NCBI RefSeq assembly: GCF_013085545.1
Contig: NZ_CP039543.1
Span: 2,170,001 to 2,234,000 of the forward strand
Length of the DNA: 64,000 bases
Direction of reading: 5' to 3'
Origin: Oceanidesulfovibrio marinus
GTDB taxonomy: Bacteria > Desulfobacterota > Desulfovibrionia > Desulfovibrionales > Desulfovibrionaceae
Numbering within the stretch: position 1 is the stretch's first letter; each line of letters opens with the position of its first letter. The translations under genes were made by a program, and so were the position numbers. The notes under the pieces were generated by a model, which saw only the letters and a list, made by a program, of their open reading frames with translations, ran no database searches and had not been told where the DNA came from. Shown here one piece after another: positions 5,412-21,162 of the stretch.

Positions 5412-6590
5412 CTACATGACCTTGCGGCCCAGATAGCGGGCATACGTCAGCGCGGCCGTCCGGTAGACGAGGTGGCCGAGCTTGGACCAAGGCAGGTAGC
5501 CGATGAGCATGAACACCGCCACCAGGTGCACGAAGTAGGTGGGGTAGGCCAGGTACTTGAAGTTCGCCAGCCGCAGGAGCTCACAGGCAATACCGGTCAG
5601 GAAGATGGCCCAGATGACGCCGAGCAGATACCAGTCGTAGTAGTTGCTCTCGGTCTTCTTGGGATCCTTGGCCACGCGGTTCGCGGTCAGCACGGTGAGT
5701 CCCACGAGACCCAGGATGGCGCCGAAGTTGGCCAGAACCTTGACCGGGAAGGCCTGCGGCATGGGCGTGTGGATGCCGTGGATTTCGATACCGCCCCAGC
5801 CGAGGAACACCGGCAGCCAGTGTCCCCAGGCCACGATTGACGTGACTATCGCCAAGGCGATGAAGGCGTAGAAGATGGCCAGATGGCCGATCTTGCGGGG
5901 CGCCTTGTCCTCGCCGCAGTCAGCAAACTTCTTATGGGTGACGATCTCGCCGACAATGGTGTCCCACAGGCAACGGATCACGCTGGGCTTCTTGCCGCCC
6001 ACATAGATGACCTCGCCCTCTGGTTTGAAGCGCTTGAGGAGCCTTGTGACACCGGTGTAGAACGCCACCAGCACATAGATCGTTACGAGTATGAAGATGG
6101 GGTCGATGGTGTAGTCGCCCGGGAAGATCAGACCGTAGACCACGTGCCCATCCTCGGTGAGGGGGAACAGCGTCCCGTTGACGCCGGCCATGATGCCCCA
6201 GATCACCAGGAACAGGATGGCCGGGATGACGGCGAGCATGGGCAGGTACTTCGGAGAGCTCATCCATTTGGCAAATACGGACGGACCGACCAGGGAACGG
6301 TAGGTCATGTTGCGGATGGCCGCCAGCAGATCACCAGGCCGGGCGCCGCGCGGACACAGGTCCGAGCACGTGCCGCAGTTGTGGCACAGCCAGACGTCGA
6401 CATCCGACATGAGTTTGTCCTTGAGACCCCACTGCGCCCAGATCATCTCCTTGCGGGGATACGGCTGACTGGAGGGCGAAATGGGACAAGCCACGCTGCA
6501 GGTCGCGCATTGATAGCACTTGGTGAGGGCGTCTCCGCCCACCCCCTGCAGCTCCCGGACGAATTGCGGGTCGGGATTGAGTCGCTGCAT
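5412..6590 (-). CDS. qmoC: QmoC, quinone-interacting membrane oxidoreductase, membrane/Fe-S subunit
   Basis: A 392-residue subunit with an HdrC-like N-terminal domain carrying two 4Fe-4S motifs, C25-x2-C28-x2-C31-x3-C35 followed by P, and CHNCGTCSDLCP further on. A C-terminal membrane domain of about six helices resembles HdrE/NarI-type b-haem proteins and should take electrons from menaquinol. With QmoA and QmoB it passes electrons to APS reductase on the cytoplasmic side. qmoB ends 12 bp upstream and qmoD follows after about 47 bp. Confidence 0.95.
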   Translation of the reverse strand: MQRLNPDPQFVRELQGVGGDALTKCYQCATCSVACPISPSSQPYPRKEMIWAQWGLKDKLMSDVDVWLCHNCGTCSDLCPRGARPGDLLAAIRNMTYRSLVGPSVFAKWMSSPKYLPMLAVIPAILFLVIWGIMAGVNGTLFPLTEDGHVVYGLIFPGDYTIDPIFILVTIYVLVAFYTGVTRLLKRFKPEGEVIYVGGKKPSVIRCLWDTIVGEIVTHKKFADCGEDKAPRKIGHLAIFYAFIALAIVTSIVAWGHWLPVFLGWGGIEIHGIHTPMPQAFPVKVLANFGAILGLVGLTVLTANRVAKDPKKTESNYYDWYLLGVIWAIFLTGIACELLRLANFKYLAYPTYFVHLVAVFMLIGYLPWSKLGHLVYRTAALTYARYLGRKVM

Positions 6591-6602
6591 TCGAATGACC
6601 TC

Positions 6603-8903
6603 CTAGTATCCCTTGAACGGGTTGGGGCCCATCTTGAGGACGTCCTTGATGAACTGGTCGATCAGCTCCGGCACCTTGTCGTACTCGTCGATGGCGACTT
6701 CATACTGCTCCACGCGCTCGGGCTCGATGCCGAGCTGGTTGAGCGTCTCGGCGATGTTCTCCTTGCGGCGGTTGCAGATCTCGGAACCCTTGACGAAGTG
6801 GCACTGGTAGTCGTCGCCATACTTGCAGCCCAGGAGCATGACGCCGTCGGTACCGCGGCTCATGGCATCCTTGATCCAGATGGCGTTGACCGAGCCCAGG
6901 CAGCGCACAGGCATGATGCGGACAAAGGGGCTCCAGTGCTTGCCGCGCATGGCGGCCATGTCCAGGGCCGGGTAGGCGTCGTTCTCGCACGCCATGATCA
7001 GGATGCGCGGGCCGCCTTCCTCGATGCTGTCCGGCACGGTGTACTGGCGGACCACATCGCTCATCATGCCGATCCCGTAGTTGTCGAAGGAGATGACGCG
7101 CTCCGGGCAGGCGCCCATGCAGGTACCGCAGCGGCGGCAGCGGTTCCAGTTGGGCAGCGGCGTGCCCTTTTCGTCATCGTCCAGGGCGCCGAAGGGACAT
7201 TCCTCGGTGCAGCGTTTGCACTGGGTGCAGCGCACGAAGTTGAATACCGGGTAGGACGGATCGCCCGAGCGGGGGTGAACCGACACGCCGCGGTTGACCG
7301 ACTCCAGGCACTGGATGGCCTTGAGGGCCGCGCCGGCAGCGTCCTCGGTGGCGTAGTCCAGAAGCATGGGCTGGCGCACAGCGCCGGCGGCGTACACACC
7401 GGTGCGGCGGGTTTCGTAGGGGAAGCAGATGTAGTTGGAGTCGGCAAAGCCCTCGAACAGCGCCAGATCCGGGAAGGCCGGGCCCTGGCGGTAGTCGAAG
7501 TGCATGACCGCTTCCTTGGCCGAGGTGGGCACGATGCCGGTGGGCAGCACGACCATGTCCACGGCCACTTCGATGTCGCCGCCGAACAGGGAGTCGGAAA
7601 CCTTGACGACGAGGCTGCCGTCAGCTTCCTCCACAGCCGTGACGCGGCCCTTGGAGAGCATCATGCCGGGTTTGTCCTGCGCGGCCTTGTAGTACTTCTC
7701 GAACACGCCCTGCACGACCATGGAGTCGTAGAAGATATACGAGATGGCGTCGTCGGACTTTTCGAGCACGTAGTTGGCCTGCTTCAGCGCAACCAGAGAG
7801 GAGACCGAGTTGGACATGGGCAGGTGCTGATAGCCCTCCCAGTCCCGCTGCGTGATTTCCTCGACCTCGACCTCGGAGTGGGGATCGCCCTCGCCTTCCA
7901 CTTCCTCGGTGAGCTCGCACTCGGCCAGGTCCTTGTAGATGCGGCCGCCCGGATCAAGGGCGGACAGATCGAGCACAAAGGCGACCTTCTTGGCCGGGCT
8001 GCCGTCGGAAGGCTTGTTGACGCGGCCTTCCTTGGCCATGAGCTCGAACTCCTTGGCTGTGACCACGTCCTTGATGGAGCCGTAGCCCAGGGGCGCCAGG
8101 TACTTGGTGTCCTGCGCCTGCCAGCCGGTGGCCATAACCACGGAGCCGATGGGCAGCTCTTCTTCGCCGCCGCTGCTCTTGATGCTGGCGGTGTACTGGC
8201 CGGGCTGGCCCTTGAGTTTGCTCAGCGTGCTGGACTTCTTCACCGTGATCTTCTCGTGGCCTTCCACCTCGGCGATGAGCTTGTCCAAGCCGGTTTCGTG
8301 GGCTTCCGTGTAGGGATGGCCCAGGGGCACGGTCTTGTAGAAGTTCTTGGCCGCGCCGCCGAGCTCGGCCTCGCGCTCCACCAGAATGGTTTCGTAGCCG
8401 GCCTTGGCGGTGTTGAGCGCCGCATTCAGACCGGTCCAGCCGCCGCCCAGCACGAGGATGGTGCGGTTGAGCTCCTCGACGTCCAGGTGGGGATACTTGC
8501 CGGACTTCAGCTTGGCCACGCCCATGTTGATGTAGTCCTGCGCGATGCCCACGAGCTCCTCGGGGGCTTCCTCGTCCAGGTCGATGGGGTTGCCGTCAGC
8601 ATCCTCGTAGGAAAGGATACACTGCTCGCGGAGGTTGACCCGCTCCACCAGCACGCCGTCAAAGGTGAAAAACTCCCAGTCCAGCCGGGGAGAGCTGCCG
8701 CATACCAGCACGGCGTCGATCTCGCCGGCGTCGATGTCGGCCTGGATCATCTTCTGGCCGTCTTCGCTGGGCAGCATGGTGTGGCTCTTGACCACGGGGC
8801 AGAGATCACCCCACTTGTTCTGCACGTACTCCTCGAGCGTCTCGGCATCGAGGACCGGGCTCAAGCAGGACTTGTCGAAGTAGACTCCTATCTTCTCGGC
8901 CAT
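6603..8903 (-). CDS. qmoB: QmoB, HdrA-like flavoprotein with MvhD-like domain
   Basis: A 766-residue soluble subunit of the Qmo complex. A FAD-binding GGGWTGLNAA motif occurs near residue 150, two ferredoxin motifs (CTQCKRCTEECPFG and CRRCGTCMGACPERV) lie in the second half, and a C-terminal MvhD-like Cys domain ends the protein (CLGSVNAIWIKDAMSRG, GCKYGDDYQCHF). It relays electrons from QmoC and QmoA to AprBA. It lies 6 bp after qmoA in the same operon. Confidence 0.95.
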   Translation of the reverse strand: MAEKIGVYFDKSCLSPVLDAETLEEYVQNKWGDLCPVVKSHTMLPSEDGQKMIQADIDAGEIDAVLVCGSSPRLDWEFFTFDGVLVERVNLREQCILSYEDADGNPIDLDEEAPEELVGIAQDYINMGVAKLKSGKYPHLDVEELNRTILVLGGGWTGLNAALNTAKAGYETILVEREAELGGAAKNFYKTVPLGHPYTEAHETGLDKLIAEVEGHEKITVKKSSTLSKLKGQPGQYTASIKSSGGEEELPIGSVVMATGWQAQDTKYLAPLGYGSIKDVVTAKEFELMAKEGRVNKPSDGSPAKKVAFVLDLSALDPGGRIYKDLAECELTEEVEGEGDPHSEVEVEEITQRDWEGYQHLPMSNSVSSLVALKQANYVLEKSDDAISYIFYDSMVVQGVFEKYYKAAQDKPGMMLSKGRVTAVEEADGSLVVKVSDSLFGGDIEVAVDMVVLPTGIVPTSAKEAVMHFDYRQGPAFPDLALFEGFADSNYICFPYETRRTGVYAAGAVRQPMLLDYATEDAAGAALKAIQCLESVNRGVSVHPRSGDPSYPVFNFVRCTQCKRCTEECPFGALDDDEKGTPLPNWNRCRRCGTCMGACPERVISFDNYGIGMMSDVVRQYTVPDSIEEGGPRILIMACENDAYPALDMAAMRGKHWSPFVRIMPVRCLGSVNAIWIKDAMSRGTDGVMLLGCKYGDDYQCHFVKGSEICNRRKENIAETLNQLGIEPERVEQYEVAIDEYDKVPELIDQFIKDVLKMGPNPFKGY

Positions 8904-8909
8904 TGGTCG

Positions 8910-10145
8910 TTACCTCCCTCTCACCGTTTGGATCGCCTTGAGCGCCGCGCCGGTGCCGGACTGGGCGGACTTCATCACGTCCAGGGGCTTTTTGGCGCAG
9001 CCGGCTGTGAATATTCCCTTTTCCTCGCCTCCCGTGATGAATCCTTCCTCGTCCACGGGGACGTCGAAGGGCAGCTTGGCGCCGGCGAGGCTCGGCTGCA
9101 TACCGGTAGCGAGCACCACCATGTCGTAGCGGACTTTCTTCTTGATGCCGCGCACAGCGTCTTCGACCTCCACGATGACATCACCGGAGGGATCGGCCTC
9201 GACGCCGGCGACCTTGCCCTTGACGAGGTTGATCTTCTCATCCTCCAGGGCCCGGCGGCGGAACTTGTCGTAGCGCTCGGGGGTGCGCATATCGATATAG
9301 TAGACGGTGCACTCGGCGTCCGGGTACTGCTCGCGCACGTACAGGGCCTGCTTCAGGGAGGCCATGCAGCAGATGTAGGAGCAGTAGTTCAGATGGTTCT
9401 GGTCGCGGGAGCCGGCGCACTGTACGAAGCAGATTTTCTTGGGCGCCTTGCCGTCGGAGGGACGCACGATCTGGCCCTTGGTGGGGCCGTTGGGGGCGGC
9501 GATGCGCTCCATCTGCATGTTGGTGACGCAGTTGGGAACCTCGCCGGCGCCCAGGTTGGTGAGCTTGGTCACGTCATACGGCTTCCAGCCGGTGGCGAGA
9601 ACGATGCTGCCCACGCTGAGCTCGATATTCTTGGCCTCTTCGTTGAGGTCCACATACTGGCTGGCGGCGACCTTGTTCAGGTCGTCCTCGGTACAGGCCG
9701 TCTTGTCCACCACGTAGCGGGCAGGGAACGCGAAGGGCATATCCTTATAAAGGCCCTTGCGCTTGTCGAGGCCGAAGTTGAACTCGTTAGAGGTCTCGCC
9801 GTCGAGAGTTTCGGCGATGGCCGAGAGATCCGCGTTGGCAGGAGCAGTGTGCCGGGGATTGATGCGGATGGAGACGTTGTAATCGCCAGCCTGGCCGGAG
9901 ACCTTGGTCACCTCGGCCATGGTGAAAAATTTGACCCTGGGATTCTTTTTGATCCTTTGAAACTGGATCTCCAGACCGCAGGACGGAGGACAAAGCTTCG
10001 GGAAATACTTATTCAGCTGCGCGACACGACCTCCAAGGTAGGGCGTCTTCTCGACGATGTAGACTTCATAGCCCACTTCGGCGGCTTCAAGGGCGGCGGT
10101 AATGCCGCTGAATCCGCCACCTATCACGAGTATCGGTTTGGACAT
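8910..10145 (-). CDS. qmoA: QmoA, HdrA-like flavoprotein
   Basis: A 411-residue FAD protein with N-terminal GGGFSGITAALEAAEVGYEV and the CPPSCGLE Cys motif characteristic of QmoA/HdrA. It forms the soluble part of Qmo together with QmoB. Two adjacent ATG codons exist; the second (10145) is 6 nt after the GGAGG ribosome site and is preferred over the first (10148). It is separated from aprA by about 157 bp containing two hairpins, so its expression may be set below that of aprBA. Confidence 0.95.
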   Translation of the reverse strand: MSKPILVIGGGFSGITAALEAAEVGYEVYIVEKTPYLGGRVAQLNKYFPKLCPPSCGLEIQFQRIKKNPRVKFFTMAEVTKVSGQAGDYNVSIRINPRHTAPANADLSAIAETLDGETSNEFNFGLDKRKGLYKDMPFAFPARYVVDKTACTEDDLNKVAASQYVDLNEEAKNIELSVGSIVLATGWKPYDVTKLTNLGAGEVPNCVTNMQMERIAAPNGPTKGQIVRPSDGKAPKKICFVQCAGSRDQNHLNYCSYICCMASLKQALYVREQYPDAECTVYYIDMRTPERYDKFRRRALEDEKINLVKGKVAGVEADPSGDVIVEVEDAVRGIKKKVRYDMVVLATGMQPSLAGAKLPFDVPVDEEGFITGGEEKGIFTAGCAKKPLDVMKSAQSGTGAALKAIQTVRGR

Positions 10146-10183
10146 CATTTTCCTCCGTGGTTTTTCGCGGCCTGTCTTGAAAA

Positions 10184-10236
10184 TGGCCTAAGCCCAGACC
10201 TTGGACGCAGGTTCGTCAGGGCTTGGGCTTAGACCA
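10184..10236 (-). terminator. Hairpin between aprA and qmoA (distal)
   Basis: TGGCCTAAGCCC (10184-10195) pairs with GGGCTTAGACCA (10225-10236), with T-rich sequence on both sides. Together with the next hairpin it could cause partial termination between aprBA and qmoABCD. Confidence 0.55.
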
Positions 10237-10255
10237 TTTTTGGCGAAAGGAAAAG

Positions 10256-10288
10256 AGCGGCCGCAGGTCCAGAAGGACCTGCAGCCGC
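10256..10288 (-). terminator. Hairpin directly after aprA, leaky terminator or 3' stabiliser
   Basis: On the minus strand GCGGCTGCAGGTCC pairs with GGACCTGCGGCCGC around TTCT, followed by CTCTTTTCCTTT. It lies 15 bp after the aprA stop. An attenuator that yields more AprBA than Qmo is the simplest reading. Confidence 0.65.
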
Positions 10289-10302
10289 AATATAGTTCAT
10301 CC

Positions 10303-12297
10303 TTACTCAGGAATGATCTGGTAGTAAGGCTTCTTGAACACCTTGGTCTCACCCTTCTCGGGATCGTACACGGAGTTCACGAAGCACTTCCACTTGGCAT
10401 CATCCAGAGCCATGAAGTCCGCGCGATAGTAGAAGCCCGGGTAACGGGTTTCCTCACGGAAGCGGATGTGCTGCATGTGGAGGCGAACGGTCCACAGGCG
10501 GTGGTAGTTCTCCCAGCAGCGCAGCAGCTCGTGCAGGTCGCGGGCAGCCAGCTTCAGGGAGTCTTCCTCGAGCATGTCGAGGAGCCAGAAGCCGGTGTCC
10601 AGAGCAGCAGACGAGGTGGTGTAGTAGGTGGAAACACCGCCACCGTACTCGTCGGTGTGCTTGACCAGACGCATCATGAAGTTCTTCGGCGAGATGTACT
10701 CGGGGTTGACGACCGGGTCGGTGGACGCGGACTTGCCAGCCTCGAAGTTGTAGTACGGACGATAGATGAGCTTCTTGAGATCGTCAGCGCTGTCCTTCAG
10801 GGTGGGCTTGAAGTCCTTGTGGTCCACAATCCAACGCACCATCTGCTTACCGACGATACGGCCTTCAGCATGGGAACCGGAGGAGAACTTGTGGCCGGAA
10901 GCGCCAACGCCGTCAGCGCAGGTGAACAGGCCGTTCACGGTGGTCATGCGGTTGTAGATCTTGCCGTTGTCAGCCTTGACCTTGTAGTCGTCAGGAACCC
11001 AGTCCTCGTCCGGACCGGAAACCCAGATGCCGCAGCAACCGGAGTGGGAACCGAGCAGGTAGGGCTCGGTGGGCATGATCTCGGAGCCGCGCTCCTCGGG
11101 AGCGCAGTTGGTGGCGGCCCACAGGTTGGCCTGACCAACGCACATGTCGAGGAAGTCTTCCCAGGCCTCGGCCTCGAGGTGCTTCTGCTCGGCCGGGGAC
11201 ATGGACTTGAAGGACTCCTGCAGGGCGGTCTTGGTGTCCATGTAGATGGGACCGCGACCTTCGCGCATCTCGCGGAGCATCATGTGGTTACGCAGGCAGG
11301 TGGGGATGATGTTGCCCTTGGCGTAGCCGCGCTCCTCGTAAGGCTTCAGCATGGCACGGTTGGTCACGCAGTAGTCTTCGCCGCGGAAGTTGGTGGCTTT
11401 GGCCTTGAAGAGCAGGAACCAGGCGCCGACCGGGCCGTAACCGTCCTTGAAGCGGGCGGGGACGAAGCGGTTTTCCATCATGGTCATCTCGGCGCCGACC
11501 TGGGCACACATGGTGTAGGTCGAACCGGCGTTCCAGACGGGGTACCAGGCGCGGCCCATACCCTCACCGGTGGAGCGGGGGCGGTACACGTTCACGGCGC
11601 CGCCGCAGGCGACGACCATGGCGTTGGTCTTGAAGATGTGCACTTCGTTGGCGCGCAGGTTGAAGCCGACGGCGCCGGCGATGCGGTTGGGCTCGTTGGC
11701 GTCCAGGAGCAGCTTCACGATGAACATGCGCTCCATGATGCGCTCTTCGCCCAGGGCGTTCTTGGCAGCCTCGGCAACGATGACCTTGTAGGACTCACCG
11801 TTGATCATCATCTGCCAGCGGCCGGAACGGACAGGCTTGTCGCCGTTGCGCAGGCTCTTGCCGGCGGCCTTGGCGGCGGCGCCGTCCAGGTTCTTGTTGT
11901 TCTCGTCCTTGATCCAGCAGGGCAGGCCCCACTCTTCAAAGAGGTGAACGGAATCGTCAACGTGGCGGCCGAGGTCGAAGATCAGGTCTTCGCGGACCAG
12001 GCCCATGAGGTCGGTGCGGACCATGCGGACGTAGTCGTCCGGCACGTTATCGCCGATGTAGGTATTGATGGCGGACAGGCCCTGCGCAACGGCGCCGGAA
12101 CGCTCGAGAGCGGCCTTGTCCAGCAGCATGATCTTGGCATCAGGGGCGTACTTGTCAGCCCAGCGCACGGTCTCGAAAGCGGCGCCGCAGTTACCCATGC
12201 CGCCACCGACCATCAGAATATCAACGTCATGCTCTTTGACTTCGGGCTCGGCGAGAGCCAAACCGCGAGGTGCTTCCTTCACGGGAATCCTAGGCAT
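10303..12297 (-). CDS. aprA: Adenylylsulfate (APS) reductase alpha subunit
   Basis: The flavin subunit of dissimilatory APS reductase, which reduces APS to sulfite and AMP in the cytoplasm. At 664 residues it matches the Desulfovibrio enzyme. The N-terminal FAD dinucleotide motif (DILMVGGGMGNCGAAFE) follows MPRIPVKEAPRGLALAEPE. An upstream in-frame TTG at 12312 lies inside the AGGAG ribosome site, so ATG at 12297 is the start. It follows aprB by 70 bp. Confidence 0.98.
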   Translation of the reverse strand: MPRIPVKEAPRGLALAEPEVKEHDVDILMVGGGMGNCGAAFETVRWADKYAPDAKIMLLDKAALERSGAVAQGLSAINTYIGDNVPDDYVRMVRTDLMGLVREDLIFDLGRHVDDSVHLFEEWGLPCWIKDENNKNLDGAAAKAAGKSLRNGDKPVRSGRWQMMINGESYKVIVAEAAKNALGEERIMERMFIVKLLLDANEPNRIAGAVGFNLRANEVHIFKTNAMVVACGGAVNVYRPRSTGEGMGRAWYPVWNAGSTYTMCAQVGAEMTMMENRFVPARFKDGYGPVGAWFLLFKAKATNFRGEDYCVTNRAMLKPYEERGYAKGNIIPTCLRNHMMLREMREGRGPIYMDTKTALQESFKSMSPAEQKHLEAEAWEDFLDMCVGQANLWAATNCAPEERGSEIMPTEPYLLGSHSGCCGIWVSGPDEDWVPDDYKVKADNGKIYNRMTTVNGLFTCADGVGASGHKFSSGSHAEGRIVGKQMVRWIVDHKDFKPTLKDSADDLKKLIYRPYYNFEAGKSASTDPVVNPEYISPKNFMMRLVKHTDEYGGGVSTYYTTSSAALDTGFWLLDMLEEDSLKLAARDLHELLRCWENYHRLWTVRLHMQHIRFREETRYPGFYYRADFMALDDAKWKCFVNSVYDPEKGETKVFKKPYYQIIPE

Positions 12298-12367
12298 TGT
12301 GTATCTCCTCAATTAGAATTCGTTGAATTCGTAGGAACTACGCACGATTCTTCTGAAAGAATCGGAT

Positions 12368-12871
12368 CTACCGATTGCCGCCCTCGCAGGGGATGTCCAT
12401 CCAGCACTGGGTGGTGTCGGCGGCTTCGATGTCGAACTTCTTGCCAACAACCTCGGCAGGCTTGACCAGCTCGGTCTCGGTGAAGAGCAGCTCGCTGTCC
12501 AGATCGCCGGCTTCGGGCTTGCCCTCGAAGGGCTTGATGGAACCTTCAGCGGTGGTGCGGATGGGGAACTTGAAGCGCTTCACGGAGCCGTTGCGGAACT
12601 TGATGGTCCACATGATGTCCTCGGAACCGCGCAGCGGAATCGAGGTGCCGCCCATGGGGGCGAAGTCAGCGTAGGGGCGGGCGGTGATGGCGCCCTGGGG
12701 GCAGATCTTGATGCAGGAGTAGCATTCCCAGCAAGCGTCGGGCTCCTGGTTGAATGCACGCATCTCGTCGGGGTCGAGAATCATCAGATCGTTGGGGCAG
12801 ATGTACATGCAGGCGGTCTTTTCGCCACCCTTGCAGCCATCGCATTTTGCCGGATCAACATAGGTAGGCAT
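12368..12871 (-). CDS. aprB: Adenylylsulfate (APS) reductase beta subunit, ferredoxin-like
   Basis: The 167-residue electron-transfer subunit of APS reductase. Cluster ligands are C10, C13, C21 and C25 for one 4Fe-4S centre and C47, C50, C53 and C57 for the other; the irregular spacing of the first set is typical of AprB. The C-terminal tail wraps AprA in known structures. GGAGG lies 7 nt before the ATG at 12871, which is chosen over an in-frame TTG at 12877. First gene of the apr-qmo operon. Confidence 0.97.
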   Translation of the reverse strand: MPTYVDPAKCDGCKGGEKTACMYICPNDLMILDPDEMRAFNQEPDACWECYSCIKICPQGAITARPYADFAPMGGTSIPLRGSEDIMWTIKFRNGSVKRFKFPIRTTAEGSIKPFEGKPEAGDLDSELLFTETELVKPAEVVGKKFDIEAADTTQCWMDIPCEGGNR

Positions 12872-13690: not shown

Positions 13691-13829
13691 ATCGAACTCC
13701 GACGCAGCCACGCTGGTGAGGTCCCTTTTCCCCGGCCTCATCCGCGCGCGTGCAGCACGCGTCTTAAATAAAGGCTGGGGATCCGAACCGTTATCTGGGT
13801 TAAAGATTAATTTGAAAAGGAGTCAAGGC

Positions 13830-15116
13830 ATGTCCAAACTCGTTCCCCCTCATGGTGGCAAAGGGCTCGTGATCTGCAAGCTCGAAGGCGCCGAACTCGA
13901 AGCCGAGCAGAAGAAGGCCGAGGGTCTCAAGAAGATCGAAATTTCCGACCGCGTCAAGGGCGACACCATCATGATGGGCATCGGCGGTTTCAGCCCGCTG
14001 AGCGGCTTCATGACCAAGGCTGACTGGGAAAGCGTCTGCGAAAAGATGCTCCTTTCCGACGGCACCTTCTGGCCCGTTCCCGTGGTGTGCGACACCAACG
14101 ACGAGGACGTGAAGGCCGGCGAAGAGGTTGCTCTCGTGGGTAAGGATGGCGTTATCTACGCCACCATGAAGGTCGAAGAGAAGTACGAGCTCACCGACGA
14201 GCGCAAGAAGTGGGAATGCGAGAAAGTCTTCAAGGGCAACGGCGAAGACTCCGAGAAGTTCTGGGATGTCGCTCTCGAAGATCACCCCGGCGTGCAGATG
14301 GTCATGAAGCAGGGCAAGTACAACCTGGCCGGCCCGGTCAAAGTCCTCTCTGAAGGCGACTACGCCGAGCGTTTCCCCGGCGTCTACATGACCCCGGCTC
14401 AGATCCGCGCCGAGATGGACAAGCGCAACTGGGGCAAGGTTGCCGCTCTGCAGCTCCGCAACCCCATGCACCGCTCCCACGAGTACCTCGCCAAGCTCGG
14501 CGTCGAGACCTGCGACGGCGTGGTTATCCACTCCCTGATCGGCAACCTGAAGCCCGGCGACATCCCCGCTGATGTCCGCATCAAGTGCATTCAGACCCTG
14601 ATCGACGGCTACTTCGTGAAGGACTTCGTGATCAACGCCGGCTACCCGCTCGACATGCGCTACGCCGGTCCCCGCGAGGCTCTGCTCCACGCCACCTTCC
14701 GCCAGAACTACGGCGTGTCCGAGATGCTGATCGGCCGCGACCACGCTGGCGTCGGCGACTTCTACACCCTCTTCGAGGCTCAGGAAATCTTTGACAAGAT
14801 CCCCTACGCCAACCCCGAAGAGGCCTGCAAGGTCCCCGGCAAGGCTCTGGAAACCCGTCCGATGAAGATCGACTGGACCTTCTACTGCTTCAAGTGTGAC
14901 GGCATGGCCTCCATGAAGACCTGCCCCCACACCAAGGAAGATCGCGTCATCCTCTCCGGCACCAAGCTCCGCAAGGCCCTGTCCGAAGGCGCTGAGGTTC
15001 CGGATCACTTCGGTCGCGAAGAAGTCCTCACCATCCTGCGTGAGTACTACGAGGGTCTGACCGAGAAGGTCGAGATCAAGATGCAGAGCGCCGCTTCCGG
15101 CGAAAACATGAAGTAA
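13830..15116 (+). CDS. sat: Sulfate adenylyltransferase (ATP sulfurylase), dissimilatory
   Basis: Activates sulfate with ATP to APS, the first step of dissimilatory sulfate reduction. It is 428 residues. Active-site motifs are [11 protein letters not shown] (208-218, with the HxxH histidines 214 and 217) and GRDHAG (302-307). Ligands C353, C356, C365 and H367 (CFKCDGM...TCPH) form the tetrahedral metal site known from the D. gigas enzyme. AAGGAG lies 7 nt before the ATG. It is divergent from aprB. Confidence 0.98.
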
Positions 15117-15147
15117 GCGCCTGCTGATCTGATACGTACCCGTACAG

Positions 15148-15179
15148 GGGGAGGCGTGCAGCACGCCTCCCCTTTTTTT
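15148..15179 (+). terminator. Terminator of sat
   Basis: GGGGAGGCGTGC pairs with GCACGCCTCCCC and is followed directly by seven T residues, 30 bp after the sat stop. A strong rho-independent terminator that separates sat from the next operon. Confidence 0.9.
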
Positions 15180-15283: not shown

Positions 15284-16972
15284 ATGCCGCAACGACCCGC
15301 GCCCAAAAGAGGGTTCCGCCGCGAGCGCACCAGGCGTTCCGAACGCTCCACCGCCGGCAGAAAGCCCATGTTCGACGAGCTCGCCGCGCTCGATACCAAG
15401 ATTGTCGCTTTGATCAAGGAGCGCAGTGCGCACCTCGCCAAAATCCGCAGCAAGGGCGGTATGGACTCTGTCGACGAGAAATCCATCTGGTCCATCTGGC
15501 AGCGCGCCCTGCCAAAGACGCGCGGCGGCGCCTCCATCTGGCGCAAGCTGTTCTTCCTGCTGCAGGACCTGGAGCCCGAGCCCGAAGAGGACAACCGCGC
15601 CAGCGACGGCTTCCTGCTCGCGCCACGCCGCGGACCCTACGTCCTGAAGCTCGATCCACCGCGCACCCTGGCCGGCATGCAATGCCTGGCCGCCCTGGGC
15701 GCGTGCGAAGAGTTCTCCATTGCACCGGCCGTGGTCAACGAGCGCCTCGTCCAGACGGTCAAGGCTTTCAACCAGACCGGCGCCGGTCTGTACTGGGAGT
15801 CGGACCAGCTCTCCGGCCGCGGCGCGGAAGAGCTCTCCTACCGCGACAAGTCCGTCTTTGTCGGGGACGACTCCCTGGCGTTCCATCTTATCCTGGCGCG
15901 CTGCCTTGCCGAGCCCGGCTCGGTCAAGTTCACCGGCGGCCATCTGCTCAAGACCGCGGACCTCACCCTGCTCGCCAGGCTGCTGCCGCGTCTGGGCGGT
16001 CGGCTTGTAAACATCATTCCCGGCTCCAAGGGCCTGCCGGTCCGCGTGGAGGCCTCCGGCCAGCTCCCGGATGAGGTGCTGATCCCCGAGGAGCTGCCAT
16101 CGGAGGCCGTGCTGGGCCTGCTCATGGCCACGCCCTTCTACCCCGAGGGGCTCACCCTGCGCAGCGAGAACCCCTCCCCGGCCCTCCGCGCCACCTTCGA
16201 TTTCGCCGCAAGCATCCTCACGGCATGCTCCATAAAAGTTGATGTCCGGACCAGTGGCGACGGGTACGCCATCGGCGTCAAACCCGGCACACCGGTCATA
16301 CCGAAGTCTCTACCCGTGGACGCAGGCCTTGGCGCGTTCCTTCTGGCCATGCCCAGGCTGGACCCTTCGGGCGAAAGCACTGTGACCCTGGAAGGGAGCT
16401 GGCCTGAAGAGACCGGCGCCTACGCCACTGCCCTGGAGATGCTCCGCGCCGCCGGGGTTGTGGTGGAGTCCGACGCGTCCAGCCTCCGCTCCAGCACCGG
16501 ACAGCTGCCTCCCGAAGCGCCTCGTCTGGACTGCGCCGGCGTGGCCGAGCTCTTCCCGCTCTCCTTTGCTCTGGCCGCCTCCATGCCCGCCTCCATCATC
16601 GACAAGCCCGACTCGAACGAGGACCTGTTCACCTGCCGCGAGCTGGCCGACTCCCTCGGCCTGCGCATCGAGGAAGGCGACGGCGTGCTGCGCATCGAAA
16701 ATATCGGCCGCCAGGACGACTCCTACGTGGAGCCGTGGGTCGCTCCCAATGCCTGGTGGGCCGTGGCCTACGCGGCCATGTCTTTCCGGCGTCCGGGGCT
16801 GGTCCTTGCCGACCCCTCGGCCGCCACAGATCTGTTGCCCCGTTTCTGGAACTTCTACAATACGTTGCCCTCGCCGCAGAGCGGCGTGTTCTACATGCCC
16901 AAGCGCGAGGCAGGAAACGAGACCAATGAGCCCGAACGAAAAGGACGACGCATTCGCATCCCAAATAGCTGA
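15284..16972 (+). CDS. Chorismate-mutase-like/EPSP-synthase-like fusion, probably non-canonical
   Basis: A 562-residue protein. Residues about 29-60 (MFDELAALDTKIVALIKER) resemble the first helix of AroQ-type chorismate mutase. The rest resembles EPSP synthase only in scattered blocks (GGRLVNIIPGSKGLPVRVEASG, PVDAGLGAFLLAMP). I find none of the KS-x-S-x-R, LGNAGT-x-R or KE(S/T)DR motifs of active EPSP synthases. Function unknown: a divergent enzyme or a pseudoenzyme. The basic N-terminus (PQRPAPKRGFRRERTRR) precedes an alternative start at 15368. It overlaps the next gene by 47 bp and leads an operon with aconitase. Confidence 0.6.
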   Translation: MPQRPAPKRGFRRERTRRSERSTAGRKPMFDELAALDTKIVALIKERSAHLAKIRSKGGMDSVDEKSIWSIWQRALPKTRGGASIWRKLFFLLQDLEPEPEEDNRASDGFLLAPRRGPYVLKLDPPRTLAGMQCLAALGACEEFSIAPAVVNERLVQTVKAFNQTGAGLYWESDQLSGRGAEELSYRDKSVFVGDDSLAFHLILARCLAEPGSVKFTGGHLLKTADLTLLARLLPRLGGRLVNIIPGSKGLPVRVEASGQLPDEVLIPEELPSEAVLGLLMATPFYPEGLTLRSENPSPALRATFDFAASILTACSIKVDVRTSGDGYAIGVKPGTPVIPKSLPVDAGLGAFLLAMPRLDPSGESTVTLEGSWPEETGAYATALEMLRAAGVVVESDASSLRSSTGQLPPEAPRLDCAGVAELFPLSFALAASMPASIIDKPDSNEDLFTCRELADSLGLRIEEGDGVLRIENIGRQDDSYVEPWVAPNAWWAVAYAAMSFRRPGLVLADPSAATDLLPRFWNFYNTLPSPQSGVFYMPKREAGNETNEPERKGRRIRIPNS

Positions 16973-17216
16973 CCTCGAAAAAGAGATCGAAACGCTGACT
17001 CTTGAAAAGCAAAACGCCGAGGCAAAGGTGAAGGAGCTGCGCGAGGCCGAAGACCCGGCGCGCAGCATCTGGTTTGCCCAGGAGATCTTTGCCTTCCAGC
17101 AGGAGAAGCTTCGGCTCGAGGTGGAAGTGGAGCTGCGCCGCAAGAAGATCAACCGTCTCCGGCTCGGAATCGATGACGGCAACATGGCTCCCCCACCCTT
17201 ATCCGCACTCCAGTAG
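16926..17216 (+). CDS. Small coiled-coil protein of unknown function
   Basis: A 96-residue, highly charged, predominantly helical protein with heptad-like repeats (IADLEKEIETLTLEKQNAE...VKELREAED, then EVEVELRRKKINRLRLG). No known domain recognised. Its start overlaps the end of the EPSP-synthase-like gene by 47 bp, so the two are translationally coupled and may act together. The aconitase gene starts 15 bp after its stop. Confidence 0.7.
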   Translation: MSPNEKDDAFASQIADLEKEIETLTLEKQNAEAKVKELREAEDPARSIWFAQEIFAFQQEKLRLEVEVELRRKKINRLRLGIDDGNMAPPPLSALQ

Positions 17217-17231
17217 AGAAGGACGACCCCC

Positions 17232-19181
17232 ATGCCCCAGAACCTGACACACAAGATACTTGCCGCTCACCTTGTCGACGGTGCGTCCCTCGGCGCCCCC
17301 GGCTCTGAAATTTCCCTGCGTATCGACCAGACCCTGACCCAGGACGCCACTGGCACCATGGCCTACCTCCAGTTCGAGGCCCTGGGCCTGGACCGCGTGC
17401 AGACCGAGCTCTCCGTGAGCTACGTGGATCACAACACGCTGCAGATGGGCTTCCGCAACCCGGACGACCATCGCTACCTGCGCACCGTGGCCAAGCGCTA
17501 CGGCCTGGTCTACTCGCCCCCCGGCACCGGAATCTGCCACCAGCTGCACCTGGAGAACTTCGCCAAACCCGGCAAGACGCTCATCGGCTCCGACAGCCAC
17601 ACCCCCACGGCCGGCGGCCTGGGCATGATCGCCATGGGCGCGGGCGGCCTTTCCGTCGCGCTGGCCATGGCCGGAGAGCCTTACCGCATCGCCATGCCCA
17701 AGGTCGTGCGTGTCAACCTGACCGGCAAGCTTACGGGCTGGGCCACGGGCAAGGACATCATCCTGCACCTTCTGGGCATGCTCACCGTCAAGGGCGGCGT
17801 GGGCAAAGTCTTTGAGTACGCCGGCCCCGGCGTGAAGACCCTCACCGTGCCGGAGCGCGCCACCATCACCAACATGGGCGCGGAACTCGGCGCCACCACC
17901 TCCCTCTTCCCGGCGGACGAGCGGGCCAGGGACTTCCTTACCTCCATGGGCCGCGCCGACGATTATGAAGAGTGGGTGGCCGACGAGGGCGCGGAGTACG
18001 ACGAGACCATCGAGATCGACCTGTCCAAGCTGGAGCCCCTGGCCGCGCAGCCGCACATGCCGGACCGCGTGGTGCCCGTGCGCGAGCTGGCCGGCATGGC
18101 CGTCAGCCAGTCCGCCATCGGCTCCTGCACCAACTCGTCCTACGCGGACCTCAAGTCCGTGGCCCAGATGCTGACCGGCAAACGCATTTCCGAGACCACG
18201 GACCTGCTCGTCTCCCCCGGTTCCAAGCAGGTGATGAAGATGCTCGCCCACGAGAACCTCATCGAGCCTCTGCTGGACGCCGGCGCACGCATGCTGGAAG
18301 CCTCCTGCGGCCCGTGCATCGGCATGGGCGGCTCGCCCATCTCCGAGGGCGTCAGCGTGCGCACCTTCAACCGCAACTTCGAAGGCCGCAGCGGCACCCA
18401 GGACGCCAAGGTCTACCTGACCAGCCCCCTCGTGGCCGCGCGGGTCGCACTGGACGGCGCGTTCACCGATCCGGCCGGCTGGGGCGAGCCCCCGGCGTTC
18501 CCGGAGCTGCCCGCCACCACGCCGTCCATCCGCCACCTGTTCATCTTCCCGCCCGAGGACGGCTCCGGCGTGGAGGTGCTGCGCGGACCGAACATCGTGC
18601 CTCTGGAGACCTTCTCCGAGCTGCCCGAGACCATCGGCACGCGCATCCTGCTCAAGACCGGCGACGACATCACCACGGACCATATCCTGCCGGCCGGCGC
18701 ACAGATCACTGCCCTGCGCTCCAACATCCCGGCCATCAGCGAGTACATCTTCAGCCGGGTGGACGCCGAGTTCGTGAGCCGCATGAAGAGCGCCGAGGGC
18801 GCCCCCTGCCGCGGCGTCATCCTGGGCGGCGAGAACTACGGCCAGGGCTCCAGCCGCGAACACGCGGCGCTTGGCCCCCGCCATCTGGGCGTCTGCGCCG
18901 TGATCACCAAGTCGCTGGCGCGCATCCACCGCGCGAACCTGGTCAACTTCGGCATCCTGCCGCTGCTGCTGAAGAATCCCGCGGACTACGACCGCCTGAG
19001 CCAAGGCACGGAGCTGACCATTGCCGCAACCGACCTCACGCCCGGCGGAACCATCGCCATCGAGGCCAAGGGCGTCGGTCCGATAGAGGTCATAAACGAT
19101 TTGACGGCCACAGAGCTGGCCATTATCCAGGCAGGCGGACTGCTCAACTACGTCCGCGCAAAACGAGAGCAAAAAGCCTGA
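17232..19181 (+). CDS. Aconitate hydratase
   Basis: Interconverts citrate and isocitrate. It is 649 residues, the short aconitase type closer to the mitochondrial/LeuC-like group than to the roughly 900-residue AcnA. Cluster ligands are visible in [14 protein letters not shown] and CGPCIGMGG. The swivel domain carries [17 protein letters not shown], with the active-site Ser-Arg loop. In sulfate reducers with an incomplete TCA cycle it serves glutamate synthesis. It lies between the small coiled-coil gene (15 bp) and the foldase gene (22 bp). Confidence 0.94.
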
Positions 19182-19203: not shown

Positions 19204-21096
19204 ATGCTCGACCTGATCCGTCAAAGCGCCTCATCGTGGGGCGTCAAGATCCTATTCGGCGTCATCATCCTCGTCTTCGTTTTCTGGGGCGTGGGTTCAT
19301 TCACCGGGTCCAAGACCCAGGTGGTCGCCACAGTCAACGAACGGCCCATCCTGGTGCAGACCTTCCGCCGCGCCCAGGAACGCGCCATCGAGAACATCCG
19401 CCAGCGCAACCCCGATGTCTCGGTCGAGGACCTCAAGGCCCAGGGCATCAGCACCCAGGTGCTCCAGCGCCTTGTGGCGGACGAGCTGCTTGCGGATCAG
19501 GGCAATGCGCTCGGCATCCGCGCTTCCGACGTGGAGGTTCGCAACAAGATCGCCAGCCTGCCGTACTTCCAGAGCCAGTCCGGCCAGTTCGATCCCGAGC
19601 TCTACCGCCGCATCCTCAACAGCCAGCACATCCAGATTGCCGAGTTCGAGGACGACATGCGCCGGGCCATCGTCACGGAGAAGCTGCAGCGCTACGTGAC
19701 CGACTCCATCCAGGTGCCCGAGTGGGAAGCCCGCGACCTCTTTGACTACTCGCGCGAGAAACGCACCCTCCAGTACCTGAGCGTCGACGACGCCAAGTAC
19801 ATGGACCAGGTGAACGCCACCGATGACGAGGTGCAGGCGTATTACGACGAGCACAAGGATGACTTCAGCGTGCCCGCGCGCATCTCCTTCTCCTACCTGC
19901 CCTTCACGCCGGCATCCCTGGCCTCCAAGGTCGAGGTCTCCGACGAGACGCTGCAGCAGGAGTACGAGGCGCGCAAGGACGAGTTCACCCAGCCTGAGCG
20001 CGTCAAGGCGCGGCACATCCTTATCCAGCTCGAACAGAACGCCACCGAGGCCGAAGACCAAGCCGCCCTGGAGAAGATCGAGGCCATCCGCAAGCGCATC
20101 GTGGATGACGGCGAGGACTTCGCCACCGTGGCCGAAGAAACCTCGGACGGCCCCTCCGCCCCCAACGGCGGCGACCTGGGCTGGTTCTCCCAGGGCCAGA
20201 TGGTCCCCGCCTTCGAGGAAGCCGCCTTCTCCCTGACTCCCGGCACTGTGAGCGAGCCCGTGCGCACGCCTTTCGGCTACCACCTTATCCTGGTGGAAGA
20301 GCGCGAGGACGCCCAGGTGGCGCCCTTTGACGAGGTCAAGGACCAGCTCAAGCAGGAGATCGCCGAGGACCGCGCCACGGACCTGGTCTCCAACCTGCTG
20401 GACGTCGCCCTGGAGCAGGTCTACGCCGGGGATTCCCTGGACAAGGTGGCCGGCGATCTGAACCTGGAGGTGCTCAAGACCGACGAGCCGCTGGACCGCG
20501 ACCAGGTGCAGAGCCTGCTGCTTCTCAAGCAGGACTCCCTGAACCGTCTCTTCGGCCTTGAAGAGGGCATGATCACCGACACGCCGCTGGAGACCGAGGA
20601 CGGCTACGTGCTGGCCACCATCGGCAAGCGCCTGCCGCCGGACTTCCAACCCCTGGACGAGGTGCGCGACTCCATCGTCACGACCATCAAGGAGACCAAG
20701 GCCTCCAAGCTGGCCAAGGAGGAGGCCGAGGCCCTTTCCAAAACCATCCAGGAAAACGGCCTGCCCGCTGACCGCGAGAGCGAACTCTCCGTCACCAGCG
20801 CGTTCGATCGCCAGGGGCTGATCCAGGAGCTGGGCGTGAACCCCGAGCTGACCAGCAAGGCTTTCAACGCCGAGAAAGGCGACTGGATTCCCGGCGCCTG
20901 GCCCGTGCAGGACGGCTGGGTCGTGGTCCGGCTGGACGACATCCAGAGCCCCACGGACGAGCAGTGGGAGACCGAGAAGTCCATGTGGGTGGACTTCATC
21001 GCCGAGACCAAGAAGGAAGAGCTCTTCCAGTCCTTCCTTAAGGACCTGCAGGAGCACGCCGAGATCAACGTCTACCAGCCCGACCTGTTCAAGTAG
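19204..21096 (+). CDS. Membrane-anchored PpiD/SurA-type peptidyl-prolyl isomerase
   Basis: A periplasmic folding chaperone, 630 residues. A single N-terminal transmembrane segment (about residues 14-33, [18 protein letters not shown]) anchors it, a SurA_N-like domain follows, and a parvulin (PpiC) domain lies at about 263-377 (VKARHILIQ...[23 protein letters not shown]...[11 protein letters not shown]). The architecture and length match E. coli PpiD. Last gene of its operon, closed by a terminator. Confidence 0.9.
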
Positions 21097-21118: not shown

Positions 21119-21162
21119 AAAAAGCGCCGGTCCCTGCATCAAGGGGCCGGCGCTTTCTTGTA
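21119..21162 (+). terminator. Terminator after the ppiD-like gene
   Basis: AAAGCGCCGG pairs with CCGGCGCTTT around an 18-nt interior, extended by TCC/GG pairs, and ends in TTTCTTG. It faces the minus-strand block. Confidence 0.75.

Follow-up and report, generated by a model that had tools for sequence, protein, structure and literature searches.

The window (a 64,000-nucleotide stretch of the Oceanidesulfovibrio marinus genome) encodes a relative of 5-enolpyruvylshikimate-3-phosphate synthase (EPSPS) that is joined to a domain resembling AroQ-type chorismate mutase (CM). This fusion is very probably a pseudoenzyme, retained for a task other than catalysis. The reading is well supported because catalytic residues are lost in all aligned members of the family, a canonical AroA is encoded elsewhere in the genome, and the gene is under purifying selection. 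EPSP synthase is the target of glyphosate and among the best studied enzymes. Nearly all Desulfovibrionales keep the fusion, usually beside genes for sulfate reduction, which would make it a clean system for examining the reuse of an enzyme fold. The literature searched describes neither an EPSPS pseudoenzyme nor a fusion of CM and EPSPS in which the two active sites have degenerated.

Taken alone, the window protein has no Pfam match, and it scores 27.5 bits (E=1.3e-6) against the aroA model TIGR01356, for which the curated cut-off is 287 bits. Among the 39 relatives searched, no copy of the family reaches this cut-off either. The homology becomes clear at the family level. A profile of 29 aligned members matches the E. 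coli and Vibrio EPSP synthases with E=1e-25 to 4e-29, and profile-profile comparison with the canonical AroA of the same order gives 99.8% probability (E=9e-28). Pfam EPSP_synthase is matched in 18 of the 29 members, and CM_2 in 21 at E<=0.1, with 3.1e-11 as the lowest value; the window protein is among those without a CM_2 match.

Structure prediction agrees. The AlphaFold model of the window protein (mean pLDDT 86.9) superimposes on structure 2o0b with Z=34.3, over 405 aligned residues at an rmsd of 3.2, and Foldseek matches the predicted fold to EPSP synthase with E 4e-22. Solved EPSP synthases as a group give Z 28–34. MurA shares the superfamily fold but gives lower values (Z 26–27), and AroA ranks above MurA by sequence as well as by fold. 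Homology to EPSPS is thus real, as is that of the amino-terminal part to AroQ at the family level. The likeness to EPSP synthase (TIGR01356, PF00275) extends to the order of structural elements and to a conserved NPGxxTxxxPxFW block, which matches DPxxVxKxFPxFW in the enzyme. The differences are: replaced substrate-binding and catalytic residues; an extra AroQ-like amino-terminal domain; a basic carboxyl-terminal tail; and scores far under the AroA equivalog cut-off.

Features of the window discussed in the text (window positions)
Feature	Position	Strand	Remarks
aprA, APS reductase alpha subunit	10303..12312	-	syntenic neighbour of the pseudoenzyme family
sat, sulfate adenylyltransferase	13830..15116	+	upstream of the pseudoenzyme gene, with a hairpin between
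Intrinsic-terminator-like hairpin	15146..15174	+	13 pairs and T-run; between sat and the pseudoenzyme gene; also in sister genome
CM-EPSPS pseudoenzyme gene	15284..16972	+	open frame, 562 aa; ATG at 15284 also in sister genome (L005)
AroQ (chorismate mutase type II)-like three-helix domain	15368..15577	+	residues 29-98; invariant R47 and E65
EPSP-synthase-fold domain	15596..16876	+	residues 105-531; without catalytic residues
C-terminal tail with basic patch [RK][RK][RK]?[IVFL]	16913..16969	+	in 29/29 members
Overlapping coiled-coil gene (predicted)	16926..17216	+	96 aa; first 47 nt overlap the pseudoenzyme gene
Aconitate hydratase	17232..19181	+	PRK07229, 923 bits, above its cut-off
PpiD-like peptidylprolyl isomerase	19204..21096	+	best model under its curated cut-off; last gene before hairpin
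Terminator-like hairpin	21121-21156		next strong one; after ppiD

An initial annotation, made from the sequence of the window, had described an EPSP-synthase-like protein without recognizable catalytic motifs, fused to an AroQ-like helix. Its first part is borne out by the profile and fold matches, and the three motifs that it named are absent rather than shifted. The AroQ likeness also stands, but the single helix does not: the amino-terminus of the model forms three helices (residues 21–56, 62–75, and 82–94), arranged as in AroQ chorismate mutase (CM_2, PF01817; the amino-terminal domain of E. coli PheA, 1ecm). Residues R28 and E52 of the E. coli mutase correspond to R47 and E65 of the window protein, both of which are invariant in the family. 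The remaining catalytic set is degraded: R11 and R51 are lost; D48 is present in most members; and K39 is mostly Arg. (Q88 falls beyond the aligned part of the domain.) The family differs from AroQ enzymes also in what this domain is fused to: an EPSPS fold takes the place of the prephenate dehydratase or dehydrogenase.

The EPSPS active site was examined in a joint alignment of the 29 family members with 28 canonical AroA proteins of the same order. Residue numbers are those of E. coli EPSPS, mapped by motif through alignment of the family profile with solved EPSP synthases. Residues K22, R27, R100, R124, R344, H385, R386, and K411 are lost in all 29 members. The R100 position is mostly Tyr, otherwise His or Ala, and the H385 position mostly Pro, otherwise Ala, Val, or Phe. 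The K340 position and the S169-S170-Q171 triplet are likewise replaced, and the D384 position is not conserved. Traces of acidic residues persist: Asp in 3/29 and Glu in 13/29 members at D313, and Glu in only 5/29 at E341. What the family keeps of the enzyme is structural, for example D242 and Gly and Pro positions. Displacement of the motifs was considered and rejected, as profile alignments across the whole domain reveal replacement and recover no active-site residues at shifted positions.

Enolpyruvyl transfer in the EPSPS family requires Lys and Arg residues that bind PEP and phosphate. These residues are gone as well, so the new enolpyruvyl chemistry once proposed for this protein finds no support. 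In a broader version of the idea, the ancestral cleft of the EPSPS or AroQ part has acquired new catalytic residues and performs some different chemistry. The family does have invariant residues of its own (R240, P252, E256, and W522, and in the AroQ-like part R47 and E65; R87 is near-invariant; window protein numbering), and the polar ones among them, R240, E256, R47, and E65, could serve another catalysis. Purifying selection and the pyridoxal phosphate (PLP) aminotransferase gene that usually lies downstream in other genomes would also suit an enzyme. Against this, not only the PEP- and phosphate-binding residues but also those for shikimate have disappeared; the invariant residues lie largely beyond the canonical active-site motifs; and sequence variability, discussed below, is unusual for an enzyme. 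A different chemistry is therefore improbable.

The pseudoenzyme is, judged from sequence, not the cell's EPSP synthase. A search for a second, canonical aroA located it about 870 kb away, between the chorismate mutase-prephenate dehydratase gene (pheA) and a tyrA-like gene; the genome encodes its own MurA also. Canonical AroA scores above the curated cut-off in 34 of the 39 relatives, and in 32 of the 34 of high quality. The five exceptions are three incomplete assemblies, one genome with an AroA fragment (G038), and G011. In the last of these (locus L024), which is 98% complete, the pseudoenzyme is present and the AroA match is only at the level of MurA. Its copy of the fusion lacks the same EPSPS residues, and the genome may represent an aromatic auxotroph, an assembly gap, or a diverged AroA.

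Published data from Desulfovibrio are relevant. The gene Dde_1106 of D. alaskensis G20 carries the annotation 5-enolpyruvylshikimate-3-phosphate synthase, and its transposon mutants are viable but less fit, with fitness values from -0.75 to -2.41 in a phosphate-starvation study (PMC5193443). The aprB gene of this strain is dde_1109, three locus tags after Dde_1106 (PMC10133479), and the nearby qmo genes are Dde_1111-1114 (PMC7376266). From locus-tag position and annotation, rather than from its sequence, Dde_1106 is probably a member of the pseudoenzyme family. (D. vulgaris DVU1063, considered as another family locus, was rejected: it is a flagellar regulator.) Since chorismate-pathway genes appear essential in D. 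vulgaris Miyazaki (PMC5764234), viability of the Dde_1106 mutants fits a role other than that of EPSP synthase. The label that this gene carries in the published fitness data is a warning for annotation.

The family was found in 35 of the 39 relatives searched. Of 150 Desulfovibrionales genomes that are at least 90% complete, 135 carry the fusion. The remaining 15 genomes, which belong to four genera (g6, g10, g36, and g232), have no copy; the gene is thus dispensable. Searches of 297 genomes of the phylum and of 84,980 species genomes revealed no fusion beyond the order. In the former, the matches listed from outside the order cover the EPSPS part only, starting no earlier than profile position 71 and in most cases past 90, and lie mostly in AroA-sized frames. 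The larger set, scanned with a closer-relative profile that is insensitive to distant relatives, yielded 24 loci, all in Desulfovibrio-related or "Deltaproteobacteria" records.

Comparison with a congener gives dN/dS 0.22 for the pseudoenzyme gene; the two genes have in common the start and a near-identical peptide from the first 28 codons. The proteins are 71% identical, versus 87% for canonical AroA of the same two species, so the pseudoenzyme is constrained yet evolves faster than AroA. Across the family, mean pairwise identity is 30%, versus 51% for canonical AroA. Such divergence might point to a pseudogene in decay or to a frame that is open by chance, and in one genome the pseudoenzyme does occur as two adjacent frames (G353:C1:1322839-1324472), possibly through recent inactivation or an assembly error. 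Decay of the family is nevertheless extremely unlikely, given the low dN/dS, the confidently predicted fold, and the lack of internal stops among the full-length family matches listed.

In phylogenetic analysis the family forms a single clade (support 100/100) on a long stem, outside the AroA clade of the order. An origin through recent duplication of this AroA is thereby rejected, the exact place of the family in the tree being unsure. That pheA and aroA lie side by side hints, without proving it, at how AroQ and AroA domains could have come to be fused.

The initial annotation also placed the gene at the head of an operon with aconitase. In the window this is upheld: hairpins before the pseudoenzyme gene and after ppiD delimit a likely unit of pseudoenzyme, coiled-coil gene, aconitase, and ppiD. 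As a property of the family it fails, and an order-wide aconitase operon is rejected, because aconitase is a neighbour in few lineages only. At many named loci the downstream gene instead encodes a class I (PLP) aminotransferase.

More constant neighbours are the aprBA genes: where aprA and the pseudoenzyme gene share a contig, as they do in 100 genomes, the distance between them is under 10 kb in 94. This proximity is the attraction of a working role in dissimilatory sulfate reduction, such as assembly or regulation of APS reductase or Qmo. Presence patterns do not match, however. Nine genomes with the pseudoenzyme have no aprA match (two of them are of 1.5-1.7 Mb), and all 15 genomes without the pseudoenzyme have aprA; on these grounds a functional tie to APS reductase is rejected. 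The terminator-like hairpin that separates the gene from sat in the window argues in the same direction, and such a role is quite unlikely.

The small coiled-coil gene raises a similar issue. Its products (85-95 aa) share the motif EDPxxGIxFAQEIFxLQQxKLRLxVE, occur in 114 of the 150 Desulfovibrionales genomes, and resemble nothing in Pfam or PDB convincingly. At most of the loci examined, in different families of the order, the coiled-coil gene starts approximately 30-60 nt before the pseudoenzyme gene stops. This overlap suggests translational coupling and speaks for an obligate pair. Yet the coiled-coil gene persists in 15/15 genomes that lack the pseudoenzyme, where it follows sat or an aldehyde-dehydrogenase-like gene, and most members of genus g35 keep the pseudoenzyme with no coiled-coil gene detected. 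Obligate pairing is rejected on these patterns, and as an explanation of the family it is doubtful. The presence patterns thus exclude both aprA and the coiled-coil gene as obligate partners, and neighbourhood alone does not give the function of the pseudoenzyme. In two of the genera without the pseudoenzyme, the gene order is sat, coiled-coil gene, and aconitase, or close to it. Among the loci of the four genera (L088-L097), the coiled-coil gene comes directly after sat in g10 and before aconitase in g6, as if the pseudoenzyme gene had been excised.

What remains, then, is a fusion protein that is very probably non-catalytic, and the nature of its task. Here the earlier suggestion of a pseudoenzyme with regulatory function divides: lost residues, a canonical AroA elsewhere, and purifying selection sustain the pseudoenzyme, and regulation is plausible only. 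The family very probably descends from an ancient EPSP synthase relative, joined to an AroQ-type domain, that ceased to make EPSP before the order diversified and was kept for a non-catalytic task. Since AroQ domains form intertwined dimers, the AroQ-like part might mediate oligomerization. The EPSPS-fold part, along with the conserved basic tail, would form a binding platform. Making no product itself, the pseudoenzyme could modulate or scaffold an enzyme of amino-acid or central metabolism; a specific regulator or scaffold role of this sort is the best guess, and a tentative one. Somewhat less likely still is a more elaborate proposal, in which the dead CM-EPSPS fusion senses a metabolite or binds the true enzymes of the shikimate pathway, thereby linking the synthesis of amino acids with energy metabolism in the sulfate reducer. 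AROM, TyrA-AroA, and CM-DAHP synthase resemble the pseudoenzyme as fusions of shikimate-pathway domains; these known fusions are active enzymes.

Finally, the region next to the pseudoenzyme gene contains very long open reading frames antisense to aprA, its neighbouring genes, and sat (window positions 5883-10232, 10201-12465, and 13800-15164). These are probably an effect of high G+C content rather than genes.
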